From JBDREC01 sp043820105 [NCBI: Pseudomonadota bacterium] (GTDB lineage: Bacteria; Bdellovibrionota_F; JAHFAK01), in assembly GCA_043820105.1 (NCBI GenBank), contig JBDREC010000082.1:1-7702 (forward strand): a stretch of 7,702 nt of DNA, given 5' to 3'. Below, piece after piece: positions 1-7,702 of this stretch (within the stretch, counting starts at the first letter, position 1; every line of letters starts with the position of its first letter). Under the pieces are notes generated by a model. That model was not told the DNA's origin. It searched no databases and saw only the letters and a program-made list of their open reading frames with translations. The translations under genes and the position numbers were made by a program.

Positions 1-678
1 TTCAAAGTCACTGTCCCAGATACAAGTGGTTGCTGGGGAATAACTTTCTGTTTCGTCCATTTCAATCCAATAACCTCTTCCTGCATACATTCTCATGAAT
101 GGTTGGTCAATTGGATCAATAATACATGCGTTAATTCCAACCCATGCATCATTATGGTTTCCGCAGTTAATATAACTCCATAAACCACTCCATTTAGGGA
201 ATCCTTGTTCTGTATTAACTAATGAATTCAATGCACAATACGCCTTGTCTCCATAAACATAGTTTTCTGGGAAATCCCATCCACCGCATTGTGATTCATA
301 GTCATACATATAGTTGTATAATTCCCAACTTGCACCATAATAACCTATTAAGTTCCATCCTGCTGCCATTGGTTTGCTTGGTGGGCCTTGTGGTCCTGTT
401 GGCATCAAGCTTCCTCCTAAAGTTATTATTAAATTGTCCTGGTTAGAATATACCCAATAACCCCAACCTGGCTCAATGTGCTCTAAGTCATTTGTTCCAG
501 GCACTCCGTTTGGCCTGTAAACATACCAATGATCTGCTACTCCATCATAAGTCCAAACTGAATCAATGTGTTCATTTACATCAGCAAAGACTACTGCAGG
601 ATCATCATTGAATAATCTAAATGGAACTGAAATTAAATTCCATTTGCTGTTCAAAAGCAAATCAAAGTTTGCTCCTTC
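1..678 (-). other. C-terminal duplicated GWNLI...GYW module, incomplete
   Basis: Residues 1716-1941, after the last Ig-like repeat. Two units share the same landmarks. Unit 1 has KWNLISVPF (1727-1735), a VWTYDG strand (1756-1761), WYVYRPNG and PGWGYWVYS (1786-1794). A GSLMPTGPQGPPSKP linker follows. Unit 2 has GWNLIGYYG (1822-1830), a KWSGLWSYI strand and GRGYWIEM (1915-1922). Paired GWNL/GYWV segments recur near the ends of archaeal and bacterial surface proteins. I cannot name the family with certainty. The module continues past base 1. Confidence 0.6.
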
Positions 679-3600
679 AACTTTAATTAATTCAATGTCT
701 GTTTCGCCTCTGTTTCCCAATGCATCTTCACAATAATACTCTAATTGGTGCATTGAATCTTCACCAAAGTATATTGTAGTTCCTGCATCAATACAAGTCC
801 AATCCTGAACTAAGTATTCTGGTGTATCTCCATCCAAAAAATACCTATAACATGCCTGAGAATGATTTACCGGATGTGGCTGACCGTCTTCACAACTTAA
901 AGTGATTGGAGTCAACTGTGTTATTTTCCATTCCCATTCTGCTTGAATGATTCCATCTTCTGTTGTAAAAGGCTGGAAACAATCAATTCCTTCAGTGCAT
1001 TCAGTTTTTGGATCTCCGATTGTTTTAATTCCTGTTGGAGGTGTATGATCCACAAACACACATTGCTTATGCAAAATATCTTTTTGGACATTGTCAACTG
1101 AATAGACTTCTATCAAATGACAGGATTCTTCTGTAATACTGATTTCACTTTCATCTGTTAATTCAGTCCAATTTCCTGTCCCTTCTGTTGTTTCACAAAC
1201 AGTTGTGTCCCAACAAGCTCCATCATCAACTAAAGAAATTCTGTATTCAGTATAGTCAACTCCTGAAGGATGTGGTTGCGGGTCTTCAGCTTCAATACTT
1301 ATTTCAGTACCAAAACTAATCCATTCTACTCCATTTTCTTCATAAAATGGCTTACTATATTCTTTTGTTATTACTGGTGCTTTTTTGTCTACAAAAACAC
1401 ATTCATATTGCATATCTTCTGTATTGCCTAATGCATCCACTGAATAATACTGTATTACATGACATGATTCTTCTGGAATACCAAATGCACCGTCATATAC
1501 TTCCATTCCAATATCAACCGAATGGCATGCTTCTGTATCCCAACAGGCATCGTCATCTAATAATGCATATCCATAATAAGTTGTTATTCCACCAACTGCA
1601 CAAATTGGTCCGCCATCTGTTGCGGTTAAACCAATTGTTGAAGCAGTGTCAATCCAACGGACATCCTCTTCTTCATAAATTGGACCAAGATATTCATGTG
1701 TTGTAGTTGGTGCAACTGAATCTACTTTAAAGATTTCATAGTCTGTTGTTGTTTCAGTGTTTCCTAAACCATCTTTACAATAGAATTCAAAGTCATGCAC
1801 TGAGTCTTCCTGGAAAGTTAAAGTATAAGATCCATCTCCAACACCCACACAACAATAATCTCCTTCCATTGTTCCTCCAAATTCACTACAATATTGGTCT
1901 GTTAACCATGGAGTGTCTGGATCATCAAATGAAACTTTGTAACATGCTGTTTCCTGTTGTACTGGATGAGGTGTCTGGTCTTCACAATCAATTGTTACTT
2001 CTGTTACATGATCTCTAACCCACCAGCAATCCGGCGCTCCTGGTTCAGTTTCAATCAAACATTGCGCTGAACAACCATCTCCGTCTTCTTGGTTTCCATC
2101 ATCGCATTCTTCTCCTGGTTCAATTATTCCATTACCACATAAAATTGGTTCTGGGCCTTCTACGAAACAGGATAAAGGAACTGCAATCAAAATTGTGTCT
2201 AATGCTGAATCTCCTGAATCTGCAACTCTTAATTCAACATTTTGTCCTTGGGCTAAAGTTGCTAAAGTAACTGTTCCTGTTCCTTCAGTTGTTGGGCCAT
2301 AAGGAATCATCACTACATTATCATAAGGAGCTTCATTATCTGATTCCCAATCCAAAATTGAAACATCAATTATTCCACCAATTCTCATCCAGTCAGTATA
2401 AATGGAATAATAATAGTGTGGGAATTCAGCTGAAGCTGCCAAAACAACACTGTTTCCTAATGGGGTAAATGGCAAGTCAACACAGTCATTTGTTGAATAA
2501 CCATCTGGATTATTTCCACACCCCATATTTCCCATAGATGAATCCAAATCAGTGTCTGCATCCAATGGATTCCCTGAAGACAAAATTAAAATGTCTCCAC
2601 AACCTTCTTCCATTAATGTCGGGTCAACTCCTTGTGCCAATAAAATATCTTCTGCAAACAATGGCAATGTATTTGAAGGCACATAAGCACATTGTTCTGG
2701 TTGTGTTGCTGAATCACAAACATTTACTACTGTCATTAATTTTGGGGTTTCTGTTTCAACAAACACATCAGGAATTCTTTCTTCTCCTGAAAAATCAAGA
2801 AGTTTTACTCCTGATCCGCCTGTAAGGAATAATGGTGAGTCAACTGAACAAGTTAATTTTGGTTCTCCGATTGTTTTGATTCCAACTGGAGCCAAATTAT
2901 CTACAAAAACACATTGTGAATTTGTTTGTTCAATAGTTCCAAACAAGTCCTCTGCATAGAATTCAATATAATGACAAGAGTCTTCTGCAATAGTAAATTG
3001 TGTTGTGTCACTCATTACTTCAGTGAAATCTCCTCCACCTATTGCTTTACATGTTTCCACACAGTCCTGATCAGCCATGTCTTCAAGCAAAGTTACTCTA
3101 TACTTAATCTGTTTTACTCCGACTTTTTCATCTTTAGCAGTCAAAGTAATTGGTGTTGCTGAAGTAATCCATCTGTAGTCTCCTGAAACTTCTGTTGGTT
3201 CGCCGTAAGTTTTTGTTGTTTCAGGAGGAGTTAAATCCACTAAGAAATCCTCGCTTTCCACTACCATATTTCCAAGTGCATCTACACAATTCAAAGCTAT
3301 CTTGTGTTTTGAATCTTCCTCAAAGAATACTTGCATACCCTCTTCACCGAAATCTCCATCGTCAACCAAACACCAAGTGCTTCCTCCATAAACTCCATAA
3401 TAGTCATAACCTAAATCATTGCATTCCTGTTGGGTAAATCCTTCCCCCCAAAAAATTTTATAGCTACAAGTTACTTGGTCAACATTGCATCCCATGTCTG
3501 TTGGGTCAGGGTCATAAACTGCAATATCTACCCCGCCATTAGCTGCAACATAACATTTTTCATCACTTGAAGCTTTTGGAGGACATTTCCCCATCCAATC

Positions 3601-5823
3601 AATATCTTCATCTCCAATCATTGTTTTTTCAATAACCGGGGCTGTTCCGTCTACTCTGAAATATTCTAAATCTATTTCACTTTCGCTTCCTAAAGCATCT
3701 CTGCAATAATATTCTAAATCATGCATTGATTCTTCAGTGAAAACAAAGCTATAATTATTTTTTGAAACATCTGCACAACAATAATCGCCTTCCATTGTGC
3801 CGCTGTTTGCATTACAATATTGTTCTGTTAACCAAGGAGTTGCCGGGTCATCAAAAGAAATTTTATAACAAACTTCTTCTTGACCTACTGGGTGAGGTAA
3901 TTGGTCTTCACAACTTAAAGTAATAGGGGTTACATTCTCTTTTACCCAGACTGGCTGTGTTTTATCTATTGTCCAGTCTAATCCAGTTGTTTCCATTAAA
4001 ACTGGAGGATAATTGCTTCCTCCTGGGACATCAGCTGCTTCTTTTACTATAAAGCCAGCTCCAAAATCATGTGCTGGGCCTATTCCATAATGTCCGTTTG
4101 GCATAAGCAAGAAATAAGTTTTTATATAGTCACCGGAAGCATCTGTTGTTGCTTTCATGTCAAAATTCCAGAATCCTTCATTTCCTGTTCCGCCGTTCCA
4201 ATAACCGCATTCCCAGGCATATTCATAACCTGATTTTGGTCCATTTGGATTTGCACAATTATTACCTAATTCATCATTTCCGTCATTTCCTTCTCTTCCA
4301 TTAAGAGTTAACTGATAATCTGTATTTGATTTTAATCCTGTCATTTTAACTGAAATCTTTAAAAAAGGACCAAAATTTTCGTAAGCTAATTTTCCTTCAG
4401 GAAGTGAATTATAACCAATGTCAGCTAAAGCTGCTGGCAAAGTATCATAACAAGTCCACTTACTATCAGCATCTTTATAACAAAGATTATCTGTTTCTTC
4501 ACTTGAGTTTTCATAATATGAAGGGTCTCCAACTTCTTTTGTTCCAATTGGAGGTTTATCTTCAACAAAGAAACATTGTGTTTGCATGTTTTCAATATTA
4601 CCTAATGCATCAACACTATAATATTGTAAGATATGGCATGATTCTTCGTTTTTAGTAAAAGGATCTAAATAAGTTTGCCAATTACAAACTGGAGGACACC
4701 CATCCCCACATTTATCTGGCAAATGTTTGCAGATTGGCTGACAATAATCTACTGGGTTTTCACAATAACTGTCATCAACAACTTCATCATAATAATAAGT
4801 TGTTGTTCCATCAACATGACAAATGTCTCCGCCATCTTTAACATCTAAATTAATTAAAGTGTCATTTGTTTTAATCCAATGCTGTGGTCCTGAATCAAAA
4901 TCATCTGGGAACTGAGGACCATCAAAAGTTTTAGTTGTTGTTGGAGGGGTATCGTCAACTTTGTCTGTTTCAGTTATAACTGTTTTATTTCCTACAACAT
5001 CATAACATTCAATTTCAATATAATGTTCTGAATCTTCGTCAAAAGAAAAATCAAATGAAACACTTCCGTCTGCATAATAAGGCATCCATTCACTTGGAGT
5101 TCCGTCATCTAAAGTATATCTCCATTGACAATAATCTAATCCTAAATTACATTCATCCTGATTTTCATAAGCTAAAACATCAATTACTGTGTCTTGAGTA
5201 ATCCAATAATTGCATGCTTGATTGTCTGTTCCTTGGAAAGGACCTAAATCACAAGCTGGATCGCTCATAAGTATTTGGGGGGTTCCCACAATTTTTTCTA
5301 CAACAGGGTCAACACAATCAATACTTACATTCAATGGGGAAGTGTCTCTGTCTCCTTCTGGTTGAGCATCATCAACTGTTGCAACAGTAAAAAAACTTCC
5401 ACAAGCTTCTGTTGAAGTTATAGTTGCACTAAAAGTAAAATTAAGTGAATCTCCATAGTCAATCTTATATGCACTATCCAATTGTGTAACATAAATACAT
5501 CTGTCTCCTAATGGCCACGGAAGGTATGTCCATCCATCTGGCTCAGCACCACAAGTAAAAGAACCTAAATCAATTCCAGTACTTGGTCTAGGAATTTCAA
5601 CCTGCATTATACTATCGCCTTCTACTGGTCCGTTGTTCAAAACATTTATTGTAAAAACAGTAGAATCACCGGCAATGTCACAACTTGCCATATCAGGATC
5701 GATTGTAACTACTGCTTCATGCGCAGCAAAAGCCATTGTTGCAAATAGAATTGTGAAGATGAAAAGAAGTGAAAGTTTTCCTCCTAAAGTTGATAAAAAA
5801 GTTTGATTATTTATTCCGATCAT
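1..5823 (-). CDS. Giant secreted repeat protein (surface adhesin-like), C-terminus cut by window edge
   Basis: Probable exported cell-surface protein, at least 1941 residues. I translated every codon from the ATG at 5821-5823 to base 1 and found no stop, so this is one intact frame whose C-terminus lies outside the window. Order of parts: signal peptide (1-33), DUF11/CARDB-like beta-sandwich (about 36-170), nine Ig-like/OmpL47-type repeats (171-1714) with two large insertions, and a duplicated GWNLI/GYW module (1715-1941+). The chain is rich in Asp, Glu, Thr, Tyr and Cys, which fits an extracellular disulphide-bonded protein, and has several N-x-S/T sequons (for example NFT at 128 and NVS at 165). 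The start is supported by a G6 ribosome binding site five bases upstream. Role in adhesion or cell contact is inferred from architecture only; no catalytic motif is visible. Any anchor (transmembrane helix or sorting signal) would lie beyond the left edge. Confidence 0.93.
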   Translation of the reverse strand, partial: MIGINNQTFLSTLGGKLSLLFIFTILFATMAFAAHEAVVTIDPDMASCDIAGDSTVFTINVLNNGPVEGDSIMQVEIPRPSTGIDLGSFTCGAEPDGWTYLPWPLGDRCIYVTQLDSAYKIDYGDSLNFTFSATITSTEACGSFFTVATVDDAQPEGDRDTSPLNVSIDCVDPVVEKIVGTPQILMSDPACDLGPFQGTDNQACNYWITQDTVIDVLAYENQDECNLGLDYCQWRYTLDDGTPSEWMPYYADGSVSFDFSFDEDSEHYIEIECYDVVGNKTVITETDKVDDTPPTTTKTFDGPQFPDDFDSGPQHWIKTNDTLINLDVKDGGDICHVDGTTTYYYDEVVDDSYCENPVDYCQPICKHLPDKCGDGCPPVCNWQTYLDPFTKNEESCHILQYYSVDALGNIENMQTQCFFVEDKPPIGTKEVGDPSYYENSSEETDNLCYKDADSKWTCYDTLPAALADIGYNSLPEGKLAYENFGPFLKISVKMTGLKSNTDYQLTLNGREGNDGNDELGNNCANPNGPKSGYEYAWECGYWNGGTGNEGFWNFDMKATTDASGDYIKTYFLLMPNGHYGIGPAHDFGAGFIVKEAADVPGGSNYPPVLMETTGLDWTIDKTQPVWVKENVTPITLSCEDQLPHPVGQEEVCYKISFDDPATPWLTEQYCNANSGTMEGDYCCADVSKNNYSFVFTEESMHDLEYYCRDALGSESEIDLEYFRVDGTAPVIEKTMIGDEDIDWMGKCPPKASSDEKCYVAANGGVDIAVYDPDPTDMGCNVDQVTCSYKIFWGEGFTQQECNDLGYDYYGVYGGSTWCLVDDGDFGEEGMQVFFEEDSKHKIALNCVDALGNMVVESEDFLVDLTPPETTKTYGEPTEVSGDYRWITSATPITLTAKDEKVGVKQIKYRVTLLEDMADQDCVETCKAIGGGDFTEVMSDTTQFTIAEDSCHYIEFYAEDLFGTIEQTNSQCVFVDNLAPVGIKTIGEPKLTCSVDSPLFLTGGSGVKLLDFSGEERIPDVFVETETPKLMTVVNVCDSATQPEQCAYVPSNTLPLFAEDILLAQGVDPTLMEEGCGDILILSSGNPLDADTDLDSSMGNMGCGNNPDGYSTNDCVDLPFTPLGNSVVLAASAEFPHYYYSIYTDWMRIGGIIDVSILDWESDNEAPYDNVVMIPYGPTTEGTGTVTLATLAQGQNVELRVADSGDSALDTILIAVPLSCFVEGPEPILCGNGIIEPGEECDDGNQEDGDGCSAQCLIETEPGAPDCWWVRDHVTEVTIDCEDQTPHPVQQETACYKVSFDDPDTPWLTDQYCSEFGGTMEGDYCCVGVGDGSYTLTFQEDSVHDFEFYCKDGLGNTETTTDYEIFKVDSVAPTTTHEYLGPIYEEEDVRWIDTASTIGLTATDGGPICAVGGITTYYGYALLDDDACWDTEACHSVDIGMEVYDGAFGIPEESCHVIQYYSVDALGNTEDMQYECVFVDKKAPVITKEYSKPFYEENGVEWISFGTEISIEAEDPQPHPSGVDYTEYRISLVDDGACWDTTVCETTEGTGNWTELTDESEISITEESCHLIEVYSVDNVQKDILHKQCVFVDHTPPTGIKTIGDPKTECTEGIDCFQPFTTEDGIIQAEWEWKITQLTPITLSCEDGQPHPVNHSQACYRYFLDGDTPEYLVQDWTCIDAGTTIYFGEDSMHQLEYYCEDALGNRGETDIELIKVEGANFDLLLNSKWNLISVPFRLFNDDPAVVFADVNEHIDSVWTYDGVADHWYVYRPNGVPGTNDLEHIEPGWGYWVYSNQDNLIITLGGSLMPTGPQGPPSKPMAAGWNLIGYYGASWELYNYMYDYESQCGGWDFPENYVYGDKAYCALNSLVNTEQGFPKWSGLWSYINCGNHNDAWVGINACIIDPIDQPFMRMYAGRGYWIEMDETESYSPATTCIWDSDFE
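1849..1986 (-). repeat. Intragenic DNA duplication, copy in repeat 6
   Basis: Partner of 3775-3912, in the same frame and with no gaps. In the protein it is residues about 1280-1325, just after the choice-of-anchor-L-like and DUF4215 insertions. Repeat 9 (residues about 1639-1670) has a more diverged third copy of the TPITLSCEDxxPHPV part. Confidence 0.8.
2059..2139 (-). other. DUF4215 / Myxo-type cysteine-rich motif
   Basis: Residues 1229-1255 match the compact CGNGxxExGEECDDGNxxxGDGCSxxC signature. The four cysteines are C1229, C1240, C1251 and C1255, and the acidic stretch EECDDGN lies between the first two pairs. The motif is known from secreted proteins of myxobacteria and other bacteria and eukaryotes, where it is thought to be disulphide-bonded and may bind metal. 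Here it directly follows the choice-of-anchor-L-like insert and precedes the body of repeat 6, a pairing also seen in modular secreted proteins. Confidence 0.85.
2161..2808 (-). other. Choice-of-anchor-L-like domain inserted in repeat 6
   Basis: Residues about 1006-1221. Landmarks resembling the choice-of-anchor L family appear in the right order: LFAEDILLAQGV (1055-1066), an ILILSSGN strand (1078-1085), an Asp ladder DxDxDxD (D1088, D1090, D1092, D1094) followed by SSMG, a hydrophobic strand leading to ASAEFPHYYYSIYTDW (1130-1145), and a final strand VELRVADSGDSALDTILI (1196-1213). In that family the last segment is typically IAD-x-x-D...DSAVF. Such domains occur on secreted bacterial and archaeal proteins with varied C-terminal anchors. 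The Asp ladder could bind calcium. Assignment is by eye and unconfirmed. Confidence 0.5.
3775..3912 (-). repeat. Intragenic DNA duplication, copy in repeat 3
   Basis: This 138-bp block aligns without gaps to 1849-1986, 1926 bp (642 codons) away. By hand I count 108 of 138 identical bases, about 78%. It encodes the CEDQxPHPVxQExxCYKxSFDDPxTPWL segment and the GTMEGDYCC segment. The high DNA identity compared with the other repeats points to a younger duplication or to gene conversion. Confidence 0.8.
4024..4440 (-). other. Unassigned beta-rich domain inserted in repeat 3
   Basis: Residues about 462-600 interrupt repeat 3 between its linker (V420 to about residue 445) and its W-V-K-E-N-V-T-P-I-T-L strand (from about 626). 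The insert has strands such as LKISVKMTGL (488-497) and DYQLTLNG (502-509), a Gly/Asn/Trp-rich loop (540-553, YWNGGTGNEGFWNF region) and a closing segment TYFLLMPNGHYGIG (569-582). It is rich in Gly and aromatic residues with only a few cysteines, unlike the surrounding repeat. I do not recognise the family. The boundaries are approximate. Confidence 0.5.
4681..4761 (-). other. Cysteine-dense loop in repeat 2
   Basis: Residues 354-380 carry six cysteines (C354, C361, C365, C372, C376, C380) in 27 residues, separated by Pro, Asp, Lys and His. It replaces the short central loop found in repeats 7 and 8 at the same place, after the GxTTYY strand. It is likely a disulphide knot or a small metal-binding loop; the spacing matches no zinc-binding family I can name. 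Confidence 0.55.
5314..5718 (-). other. N-terminal DUF11/CARDB-like beta-sandwich domain
   Basis: Residues about 36-170, directly after the signal peptide. Landmarks typical of DUF11/CARDB-type adhesion modules are visible: a strand ending FTINVLNNGP (57-66), a conserved-looking GW with paired cysteines (C91, C109), a strand LNFTFSATIT (127-136), and a closing strand with the sequon NVS (165-167). The domain sits before the first Ig-like repeat and lacks the VDxTPP linker that opens the repeats, so it is a separate module. Family assignment is by eye. Confidence 0.55.
5725..5823 (-). other. Signal peptide of the giant surface protein
   Basis: Residues 1-33 form a Sec-type signal sequence. 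There is a short polar N-region with Lys16, a hydrophobic core at residues 17-30 (LSLLFIFTILFATM) and an A-x-A site (Ala31-Phe32-Ala33) followed by AHEA. Cleavage is predicted after residue 33. This is the main evidence that the protein is exported. The absence of Arg-Arg argues against Tat export. Confidence 0.85.
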
Positions 5824-6028: not shown

Positions 6029-6304
6029 GTGGAAAAAGGTTTTGCTGAAGCAGAAATCCTGACTAAACTGTCTCCTTTACAGCAAAAAATCGTTATTGAA
6101 TTAAAGTCAGGGCCATTAACCTTGAATGAAATAAGCGAAAGGACTAATTCAAGTATTTATACAATAGGAAAACAGCTTTCTTTGCTTCAGGGAAGAACTA
6201 AATGCAATCACCTGAAAAAAAAAGGGATTGAATGCCCTTTAATAAAAAAAGTCAAAGAAGAAAAAATAAAAACAACTTATTTGCTGGCATTAAATAAATT
6301 CTGA
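6029..6304 (+). CDS. Small winged helix-turn-helix DNA-binding protein
   Basis: A 91-residue basic protein, probably a transcription regulator. Residues about 14-27 (LSPLQQKIVIELKS) form the first helix, GPLTLNEISERTN (28-40) the second, SIYTIGKQLSLLQGR (42-56) the recognition helix, and the segment to about 88, ending KIKTTYLLAL, the wing. Between the last helix and the wing it has C59, H61 and C69, which could bind a metal or act as a redox sensor, but this is speculative. The start is a GTG: an in-frame TGA lies directly before it, there is no usable ATG inside, and a TATA box sits at the right distance for a leaderless message. The gene is divergent from the giant surface gene and convergent with the ATPase, overlapping it by 28 bp. 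The target is unknown; the divergent promoter is the obvious candidate. Confidence 0.8.
   Translation: MEKGFAEAEILTKLSPLQQKIVIELKSGPLTLNEISERTNSSIYTIGKQLSLLQGRTKCNHLKKKGIECPLIKKVKEEKIKTTYLLALNKF
6244..6266 (-). terminator. T-tract terminator of the ATPase gene
   Basis: Reading the minus strand past the ATPase stop (6277-6279) gives a T6 at 6266-6261 and a T7 at 6250-6244, with no hairpin. These are plausible archaeal termination sites and lie inside the winged-helix coding sequence, so each message would carry antisense to the other gene's end. The tracts also encode Lys-rich residues, so they may be partly coincidental. Confidence 0.4.
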
Positions 6305-7491
6305 TTTTTTTCAAGCAGCCATTTCTTTATGTTAATTAAGCATATTTCAATATTTTTTTGTGTTATTTTCTTTGTTTTGCCTGTGTATAATATTGTTGCC
6401 TTTTCTGTTTTGGTTTTTTTGCAGAATTCTATTATGCTTTCCTGTTCCCTTACAGGAAGCTTAACAGAATAGCATACATTAATAGGATTTATTTTTGTTT
6501 TTTTCTTTGCTATAAAATCCACTTCCTGGACGCTTTTCCAGTAATACAATTCATTTTGCCTGTGCTTTAATTCTATTGCAACTGCGGATTCTGCCAATCT
6601 GCCTTTATCTTCTGTAAATGATTTCGAAGCATATTGCTGCATACCCAAATCAAAAGCATAAATTTTTCTCGGTTTTGCCAGCGACTCTTTCATAGAATAA
6701 GAAAAAAAAGGAACCTGAAACACCAAAAAAGCAGTTTCCAGATACTCTAAAAACTGCCTTATTGAATCATAAGACAAACCAAGCGCAACCCGTATTTTTT
6801 TTAAGCTTATTTGCTTGCCTGAATTAGTCAATAAATAAAAAGCAAAATTTCTTAATGCAGCAGAATCCCTTACATTATATCTGGTTATTATATCCTTTAT
6901 CAATGCAAGCTCAAAATAAGATTCCAGCAGTTTTTCTTTTTTTTTCGGATTAAGCACTACTTCAGGATAACCTCCTGTTAATAAATAATCATCAAGCCCT
7001 TTTTTTGTTATTCTGTGAAATTCACTAAACGAAAACGGCAGTATCTGAAAACCAATGCCTCTGCCCCCAAGCGAAGAAGCAAACTCACTGCTTAATAATT
7101 TTGCAGAAGACCCAGTTACTATTACCTGGCATTGCCTTGTATCAACTGCCTTTCTAACCCATTTTTCCCATCCTGAAATAAGCTGGACTTCATCAAATAC
7201 AATTGTGTCATTCACTGAAAGGCCTTCAGCAAAAGAATCCATAAGCGAAGTATTCAGCAAATTTACAAGTTTCGGGTCCTCCAAATTAACATATCTTTTT
7301 TTAGTGTTTTTTGGCAGTCTTTCCAGCAGCCGCCTTGCAACAACAGACTTGCCTGCCCTTCTTGGCCCAAACAAAAAAACAACATTTTTACTGCCAACAT
7401 AAGGCAAAATTTCATCCTCAACATTTCTTTTGAATGTTTTTTCCCTTAAAGCCCACTTATCCAAAAGCTCTTTAAAATCCCCTGAAAGCAT
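6277..7491 (-). CDS. AAA_14 / DUF4143 family ATPase
   Basis: A 404-residue cytoplasmic P-loop ATPase of full family length. Walker A is GPRRAGKS (42-49), Walker B IVFDEVQ (97-103), sensor-1 region VTGSSAKLLS (125-134), and LGGRGIGFQILPFSFSEF (141-158) with R144 is the usual arginine motif. The DUF4143 part follows: YLLTGGYPEVV (169-179), a winged-helix segment (about 225-256), and a PD-(D/E)xK-like core with E300 in GRLAESAV and E322-V-D324-F. The E-x-K strand of the nuclease fold is replaced by NVCYSVK (337-343), so cleavage activity is doubtful. Family members are often scattered, mobile or toxin-antitoxin-associated in archaea; the cellular role is unsettled. The ATG at 7491 has no ribosome binding site and a TATA box 25 bp upstream, so it is probably leaderless. 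Its 3' end overlaps the winged-helix gene by 28 bp. Confidence 0.92.
   Translation of the reverse strand: MLSGDFKELLDKWALREKTFKRNVEDEILPYVGSKNVVFLFGPRRAGKSVVARRLLERLPKNTKKRYVNLEDPKLVNLLNTSLMDSFAEGLSVNDTIVFDEVQLISGWEKWVRKAVDTRQCQVIVTGSSAKLLSSEFASSLGGRGIGFQILPFSFSEFHRITKKGLDDYLLTGGYPEVVLNPKKKEKLLESYFELALIKDIITRYNVRDSAALRNFAFYLLTNSGKQISLKKIRVALGLSYDSIRQFLEYLETAFLVFQVPFFSYSMKESLAKPRKIYAFDLGMQQYASKSFTEDKGRLAESAVAIELKHRQNELYYWKSVQEVDFIAKKKTKINPINVCYSVKLPVREQESIIEFCKKTKTEKATILYTGKTKKITQKNIEICLINIKKWLLEKNQNLFNASK
6305..6311 (+). terminator. T-tract terminator of the winged-helix gene
   Basis: Seven T follow the TGA stop at once, and a second T7 lies near 6352-6358. Archaeal RNA polymerase commonly stops at such tracts without a hairpin. 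Both lie inside the ATPase coding region on the other strand. Confidence 0.5.
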
Positions 7492-7512: not shown

Positions 7513-7520
7513 ATATATAA
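7513..7520 (-). promoter_or_regulatory. TATA box of the ATPase gene
   Basis: TTATATAT on the minus strand is centred about 25 bp from the ATG at 7491. That spacing, with no ribosome binding site between them, indicates a leaderless transcript. Confidence 0.7.
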
Positions 7521-7521
7521 G

Positions 7522-7543
7522 GGGTTACGTTATAACGTAACCC
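7522..7543. promoter_or_regulatory. Perfect 22-bp palindrome, candidate operator
   Basis: Two 11-bp half-sites, GGGTTACGTTA and its exact complement TAACGTAACCC, meet with no spacer. The site ends one base from the ATPase TATA box, where TFB would contact the BRE, so a bound dimer should block initiation. On the other side it abuts TATTTAAAT, a possible plus-strand TATA. GC content at the ends is well above the surroundings. The binding protein is unknown: it could be the ATPase itself through its winged-helix segment, or an unseen regulator. Confidence 0.7.
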
Positions 7544-7702
7544 TATTTAAATGGCGGATTTATAAAATTTGGTTTAAAGAACGAATTGGTTTTTTGTCAG
7601 ATTGCTTCTTTAATTTGCTAAAAGCCGGTTACACATACAGGGAAATTATTTGAAAAAGTTTCCCTCTATAAAATTCTTGTTGCTTTTGGATAAAAACGAC
7701 TT
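7544..7702 (+). other. Right-edge region with plus-strand TATA elements, possible start of a divergent gene
   Basis: Two TATA-like elements, TATTTAAAT (7544-7552) and TTTATAAAA (7559-7567), face rightward. The phase starting with TTG at 7594 gives about 19 residues (…NLLKAGYTYREII) before TGA at 7651. A different phase is open from 7614 to the end, and a TTG at 7650 after AGGGA would give LKKFPSIKFLLLLDKND running off the edge. The two may be a real start plus noise, or a frameshifted remnant; the window is too short to decide. Confidence 0.25.

Follow-up and report, generated by a model that had tools for sequence, protein, structure and literature searches.

The AAA_14/DUF4143 ATPase gene in the 7,702-nucleotide stretch of DNA analysed here (the window) is preceded by a perfect 22-bp palindrome at its core promoter. 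This dyad is conserved at a fixed position upstream of orthologous genes, is nearly unique in the genomes that carry it, and has counterparts of different sequence at the core promoters of other DUF4143 ATPase genes. We think it probable that the palindrome serves as an operator private to this ATPase gene, and that the ATPase itself binds it and represses its own leaderless promoter.

A perfect palindrome adjoins the TATA box of the ATPase gene

The interval 7513–7543 is made up of the TATA box of the ATPase gene (TTATATAT, 7513–7520, minus strand) and, one base away, the palindrome GGGTTACGTTATAACGTAACCC (7522–7543), which is identical to its own reverse complement over 22 bp and has no spacer, as a previous interpretation made from the sequence alone (the sequence-only reading) had claimed. 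It is the longest spacer-free palindrome of the window, the runner-up having 14 bp. The same reading held a chance origin to be very unlikely, and the numbers bear this out: from the base composition, 0.004 palindromes with arms of at least 11 nt are expected per window, and only 1 of 903 Markov-simulated windows contained an equally long one. When the A/T-rich flanks are counted in, the arms of the dyad reach 21 nt, with 81% complementarity.

The centre of the palindrome lies at about -41 relative to the ATG of the ATPase gene. Since the TATA box ends 22 bp before this ATG, the ATPase message is expected to be leaderless and the palindrome to lie outside of it. Judged by archaeal promoter architecture, the palindrome would cover the position of the BRE next to the TATA box. 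The fixed geometry of dyad, TATA box and ATG, which also holds in the orthologues described below, thus fits the earlier proposal of a bound dimer controlling a leaderless promoter, and makes the palindrome a candidate operator. A terminator scanner flags the dyad as terminator-like on the minus strand, such that it might instead act as RNA, in the form of a terminator or attenuator hairpin. However, the tail of this hairpin would be CTTATATATG, i.e., the TATA box, which is no continuous run of T, the leaderless message is expected to begin downstream of the dyad, and several of the bacterial dyads described below span the -10 region instead of a leader. We regard a role as RNA as highly improbable.

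On its far side, the palindrome is followed by a mirrored A/T octamer (7544–7551; TTTAAATA on the minus strand), which could serve a divergent promoter as its TATA box or belong to the binding site. An A/T-rich, TATA-like stretch that mirrors the gene's own TATA box beyond the palindrome is found at 7/7 gene-bearing sites. The suggested divergent promoter at the right edge may have its counterpart in this conserved octamer, yet no divergent gene was identified in the 0.2 kb that the window offers past the site. A second dyad, AGGGAAATTATTTGAAAAAGTTTCCCT, lies at 7639–7665; its minus-strand sequence is similar to the promoter found in a different class of ATPases (L187, L101). The 0.1 kb between this dyad and the palindrome contains no gene of that class, and the second dyad may be a relic.

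The palindrome is conserved together with the ATPase gene

A genome scan yielded four close orthologues of the ATPase, three of them from MAGs of Diapherotrites and the fourth from a Chloroflexi-labelled bin that falls in the same phylum group; two further ones (L104, L106) came from a pattern search. These six orthologues are 73–85% identical to the window ATPase. In 7/7 sequences, window included, a dyad lies beside a TATA-like box at a distance to the ATG that is constant within a base or two (about -41), while the DNA further upstream fails to align. The promoter dyad is hence conserved together with the ATPase gene, and the palindrome is kept in all seven sequences, which is the conservation upstream of orthologues on which the earlier interpretation had been made to depend. 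A more distant relative from Micrarchaeota (L072, 48% identical) carries a degenerate dyad at the same place. The dyad might also be a chance palindrome or an effect of composition. A/T-rich promoters do yield some chance dyads, as seen in 5 of our 127 control promoters (see below), yet the low expected number per window and, decisively, the conservation of the dyad in orthologues whose flanks diverge refute this explanation, the probability of which we consider negligible.

The gene neighborhoods have little in common. A small HTH-like ORF is shared by the flanks of the window and of L068, an ORF of L070 is 39% identical over 54 residues to the long repetitive protein of the window, and in L106 a second, distant ATPase adjoins the first; outside the ATPase gene, no other flanking ORF recurs (with <0.4 kb available downstream for L071, L104 and L106). 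The long repetitive protein (1–5823) is of a surface type, comprises 1,941 amino acids in the window, where it runs off the edge, and shows a weak match to an OmpL47-type domain.

The small HTH-like ORF (6029–6304) is convergent with the ATPase gene, overlaps its 3' end and gives weak matches to sigma-70 region 4/HTH domains. It bears on the possibility that a separate TetR/ArsR-type regulator, encoded elsewhere, uses the dyad as its operator and so controls the ATPase. TetR/MarR-type sites are typically spacer-free dyads of about this length, the HTH-like ORF adjoins the ATPase gene in the window and lies 0.9 kb downstream of it in L068, and relatives of the HTH protein were found in 4 of the 10 genomes subjected to a whole-genome search (G001, G004, G007 and G022). 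Yet it is absent from the other six (G002, G003, G033, G072, G019 and G037), the first four of which possess an intact ATPase and operator, so that the HTH gene is missing from 4/6 genomes with an intact orthologue and operator. Furthermore, the site occurs only once per genome, and every ATPase would require a separate regulator of its own, which in the bacterial genome G185, e.g., would amount to many. We consider a separate regulator unlikely, though one unrelated to the HTH-like ORF and encoded far away may exist. That the product of the ATPase gene binds the dyad is the simplest assumption, because the genes with a dyad have a private one each, fixed to the core promoter, without a co-occurring regulator gene.

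Sites are rare and mostly lie next to DUF4143 genes

Of 87 genomes from the phylum, 11 contain the palindrome when up to three mismatches are allowed, with one site each. The motif is hence not scattered, whereas scattering far from promoters would have refuted the sequence-only reading. As the reversed pattern, used as a control, also gives one match each in 6 genomes, a single weak site means little alone. Eight of the 11 sites are located within 100 bp of a DUF4143 gene. The eight comprise the six orthologues, a member of the sister group (L107, with a 36% identical ATPase) and a decayed site in G007, where the neighbouring ATPase has a different operator. The three other sites (G019, G022 and G037) have no family member within the 10–19 kb around them; in G022, a PF01637 ATPase is found more than 1 kb from the site. 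The site in G037 shares its operator variant and promoter, including a TATA-like box, with L104 and then diverges, and looks like a relic of gene deletion. The sites at L211, L212, L213 and L223, which are orphans or adjoin an ATPase gene with a truncated N-terminal part, look like relics of gene loss.

Orphan and decayed sites, together with the largely unrelated surroundings of the orthologues, would also be compatible with an ATPase gene carried by a mobile unit, of which the dyad would be an end, a target or an excision scar. However, each genome has only one copy, and the window has a single one, with none at the other end of the ATPase gene; terminal inverted repeats at both ends, by which a transposon or insertion sequence would be recognized, are thus not present. 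The position of the dyad is fixed with respect to TATA box and ATG, which is not required of a mobile end, and different dyads occupy the same position in other family members. The orphan site of G037 keeps operator and TATA-like box before it diverges, as after deletion of a gene. Altogether, a mobile unit appears very unlikely to us.

In viral contigs, 67 stretches match GTTACGTWWWWACGTAAC, but the DNA available around them encodes no ATPase relative (E 1e-3), and we take these matches as unrelated convergence. The exact 18-bp core GTTACGTTATAACGTAAC is present in 26 of the 67 viral stretches (L001, L006, L007 and others), 22 of them in one shared context.

Different dyads occupy the core promoters of other family members

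Many of the other DUF4143 ATPase genes likewise have a core-promoter dyad, but one of different sequence; TTTCTATTACTAATAGAAA, TATTGCTCATTATAATAAGCAATA and TTTCCCTATGTATAGGGAAA are examples. We analysed 118 unique upstream stretches drawn from 137 profile matches, having dropped those with no Walker A match, no start codon, or less than 170 bases upstream, as well as duplicates; 60 regions had been taken among the higher-scoring matches listed. The set is mainly archaeal: most stretches belong to the phylum that includes G001, and a few come from G005, from Thermococci and from two bacterial loci. It also contains two RFC-like proteins (L075), which had passed the profile. The start codon was taken to be the ATG lying furthest upstream within 90 residues of Walker A; single positions may therefore err, as that of L068 does. 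Dyads were scored at thresholds of 7, 7.5, 8 and 9, the main tables being compiled at 7, 8 and 9. The 127 control promoters came from 15 of the same genomes.

Dyads scoring at least 8 and centred at -46 to -36 are found in 26 of the 118 ATPase stretches vs. 5 of the 127 control promoters (p = 1.4e-5); for the latter we demanded 90 bases not covered by other ORFs, a condition that was not imposed on the ATPase genes. In the wider zone from -60 to -20, the counts are 43/118 vs. 10/127 (p = 3.4e-8). Further upstream, at -110 to -70, there is no difference to control promoters (12/118 vs. 8/127), although this zone is still above shuffled sequences (12/119 vs. 3.0). Dyad centres peak at -42 and -41 (19 genes), where the palindrome of the window is also centred. 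When proteins are clustered at 55% identity, 16 of 67 clusters have a dyad at -46 to -36, whereas 40 dinucleotide shuffles gave 0.7 on average and never more than 2. In some family genes, the half-sites lie on either side of the TATA box, and in the majority of the members analysed no dyad reaches the score applied. The signal is weaker in Micrarchaeota, for which ATPase promoters alone were counted, with dyads in 8/50 stretches at -46 to -36 and in 10/50 at -110 to -70. In the Thermococci loci L306 and L296, dyads of the form CTTTCACAAAAGGTGCA..TTTGTGAAAG occur upstream of DUF4143 ATPases, two of them in tandem in L306.

The operators are largely private to their genes. Sites of the class TTTCTATTACTAATAGAAA with zero or one mismatch occur in 6 of 87 genomes; four of the six have it at the promoter of a full-length DUF4143 gene, while it lies beside an N-terminally truncated one in G049 (L223) and, in G067 (L229), beside a frame that is cut by the contig end and still matches the family profile. 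At exactly two mismatches, 13 further places are found, compared to 3 for the reversed pattern: one is at an ATPase promoter (G030, L222), one is inside an ATPase reading frame (L216), and the remaining 11 have no family member within 1.5 kb on either side. Judged by these counts, exact copies of an operator are private while weak copies are not. Likewise, one operator pattern of G185, searched with up to two mismatches, has exactly two sites in 5.4 Mb, both of them at ATPase promoters.

Bacterial and plasmid-borne members

G185, the bacterial genome of an Oligoflexia MAG (locus L074), contains 70 DUF4143 matches, 47 of which have usable promoters. In these, dyads scoring at least 8 at -35 to -5 are present in 21 of 47 promoters vs. 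0 of 24 control promoters (p = 2.3e-5; 0.6 expected from shuffles), and several of them enclose a -10-like box; at -120 to -90, the counts are 5/47 vs. 1/24, with 0.7 from shuffles. The genome of the Chlamydiae MAG contig L073 (G188) has 24 DUF4143 matches. Both genomes thus appear to hold large expansions of a candidate defence gene.

Of ten named, hand-picked plasmid copies, five have a dyad scoring at least 8 within 50 bp of the start. In Spirosoma linguale the dyad spans 35 bp and is centred at -20.5, and the other centres are at -21 in Thermus oshimai, -46.5 in Thermus thermophilus, -14 in Calditerrivibrio and -23 in Sulfuricurvum; the copies of Sulfurimonas, Methanomethylovorans, Treponema, Methanosphaera and Emticicia have no such dyad in this range. 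The DUF4143 gene analysed on pTT27 has dyads at -46.5 and -11.5. According to PMC4406477, in T. thermophilus HB27 possessing Argonaute, the presence of a plasmid is accompanied by a 6.6-fold rise of the AAA_14/DUF4143/HTH gene TT_P0211, and the authors attribute such expression changes directly or indirectly to Argonaute. We take this plasmid-linked rise as an independent hint for regulation, TT_P0211 being only putatively the same gene as the pTT27 DUF4143 copy.

The ATPase contains a predicted winged helix

The ATPase gene (6277–7491, minus strand) encodes 404 amino acids. The protein matches AAA_14 (PF13173) over residues 35–158 with 108 bits (cut-off 27) and DUF4143 (PF13635) over residues 199–342 with 84.6 bits (cut-off 28.1), i.e., both domains exceed their curated cut-offs in one protein, which makes it a member of the AAA_14/DUF4143 family. 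A match to PF01637 is below threshold. The PADLOC model of PDC-S01, which we take to be the COG1373-type, is matched with an E-value of 4.5e-92, and PDC-S01 models are also matched by 7/7 relatives tested, which identifies the protein as a candidate defence ATPase. Sequence searches returned no solved structure related to the window protein, the profile searches yielding distant AAA+ proteins or chance matches only.

For residues 178–404, AlphaFold2 (alignment of 16 sequences) gave a model with a mean pLDDT of 89.9 and a pTM of 0.85; the model of the whole protein is poor (pLDDT 66), and its Foldseek matches were used as evidence for an AAA+ fold only. Residues 210–279 (coded by 6655–6864, minus strand) are predicted to form a winged helix, mostly with pLDDT >90, consisting of helices 210–222, 230–237 and 241–253, the last of which would be the recognition helix, and a two-strand wing that extends to residue 279. 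The closest folds to residues ~178–280 of this predicted model are MarR/Fur/ArsR-type repressors, with middling Z values of up to 8.4, and Foldseek gave no match at an E-value of 0.001 or better for the winged-helix part. The gene product is thus predicted to possess a DNA-binding domain. Residues 296–387 (6331–6606, minus strand) resemble McrC (Z 8.4 over 106 residues), Can2 (Z 7.8) and VC1899 (Z 6.6), and by these middling, fold-based scores the C-terminal part appears to have a PD-(D/E)XK nuclease fold. E301, E323 and D325 are invariant in 10 sequences, and the expected ExK would, by our putative residue mapping, read N/Q-V-C/T.

Discussion

The most economical reading of these data is that the ATPase controls itself, as the sequence-only reading had suggested, since other family genes carry their own, different dyads. 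We envisage that two ATPase subunits, either as a dimer or as members of a larger ring, would place their two winged-helix domains on the 22-bp dyad. The bound ATPase would hide the BRE beside the TATA box, keeping TFB/TBP (or RNA polymerase) off the promoter, such that its own leaderless transcription would stay low. Release might come about by a changed nucleotide state, a changed oligomer or a captured target, which for a defence ATPase would plausibly be foreign DNA. Different dyads at the same place would prevent cross-talk between paralogues of one genome. The dyad, its position, conservation and near-uniqueness, and its family-wide counterparts are observed and the winged helix is predicted, while the binding by the ATPase, the repression and the releasing signal are what we infer.

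If the winged helix reads the operator, it might be expected to covary with it. Similar operators are found mainly among proteins whose AAA domains share more than ~60% identity, and operator similarity tracks overall protein similarity. Comparing pairs that share an operator with pairs that do not, the raw contrast in the winged helix is marked at 0.40–0.85 identity (p = 6.7e-7), weak at 0.55–0.85 (p = 0.035) and lacking at 0.40–0.55. After correction for total identity by regression, no part of the protein predicts operator sharing better than the others (sliding AUC 0.42–0.59). Self-directed control is favoured for its economy, but the covariation does not single out the winged helix.

PDC-S01 is described in PMC12988326 as an ATPase fused to a PD-(D/E)XK domain that constitutes a single-gene candidate defence system, with 9,986 detections in archaea and 29,494 in bacteria, which makes it the fourth most common across prokaryotes; experimental validation is stated to be pending for most PDCs. 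The window protein and the relatives tested resemble PDC-S01 in that they match its models. A term search of the main text of PMC12988326 gave no hit for promoter, palindrom-, autoregul-, operator or inverted repeat, so that the operator layer is what the present analysis would add to that account. Among the open-access literature matches listed, there is no report of operators of the PDC-S01/DUF4143 family, and no title of the open-access papers naming COG1373 concerns regulation. Autorepression via inverted repeats as such is already known for defence genes: in AbiE, a type IV toxin–antitoxin system, the antitoxin AbiEi autoregulates via inverted repeats (PMC7319586). As in AbiE, the product of a defence-related gene would repress its own promoter through inverted repeats; unlike in AbiE, where a separate antitoxin binds, ATPase, DNA binder and effector would here be one protein. 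As far as these sources go, what is new are the putative gene-specific operators across the family. With MarR/ArsR/Fur-type repressors, the ATPase would share the predicted fold and, presumably, the action on promoter dyads, yet its winged helix, recognized by fold match, is located between the AAA and nuclease-like domains.

By way of generalization, PDC-S01/COG1373 ATPases of archaea and bacteria could be self-repressing sensor-repressors with private, fast-diverging core-promoter operators, released when the ATPase or nuclease part engages an intruder; we put this forward tentatively, as a proposal that falls somewhat short of being probable. Private promoter operators would make the opaque PDC-S01 family testable, as they would predict the DNA bound by each protein. 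Autorepression predicts that deletion of the ATPase derepresses its own promoter, which could then serve as a reporter for the releasing signal. The divergence of operators below ~60% AAA identity would fit selection against cross-talk, and the family would then be a source of orthogonal repressor–operator pairs. If this holds true, a genome with dozens of such ATPases would contain dozens of mutually orthogonal pairs, and the operators would directly reveal which DNA is recognized by uncharacterised proteins in their tens of thousands.

The PF01637 ATPases, which we take to be the STAND/MNS archaeal ATPases, are related P-loop ATPases with another C-terminal family, and 29 of 30 returned loci provided 22 genes with a usable promoter for comparison. 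Among the 11 better matches, a dyad is present in 2/11 at -46 to -36 and in 4/11 at -60 to -20, while the 11 weak matches, taken as other AAA+ ATPases, have no dyad scoring at least 8 at -60 to -20 (0/11). With 11 genes compared, this sister family may share the dyad design. Strong dyads near the start codon were observed in the PF01637 ATPase genes at L373, L377 and L386.
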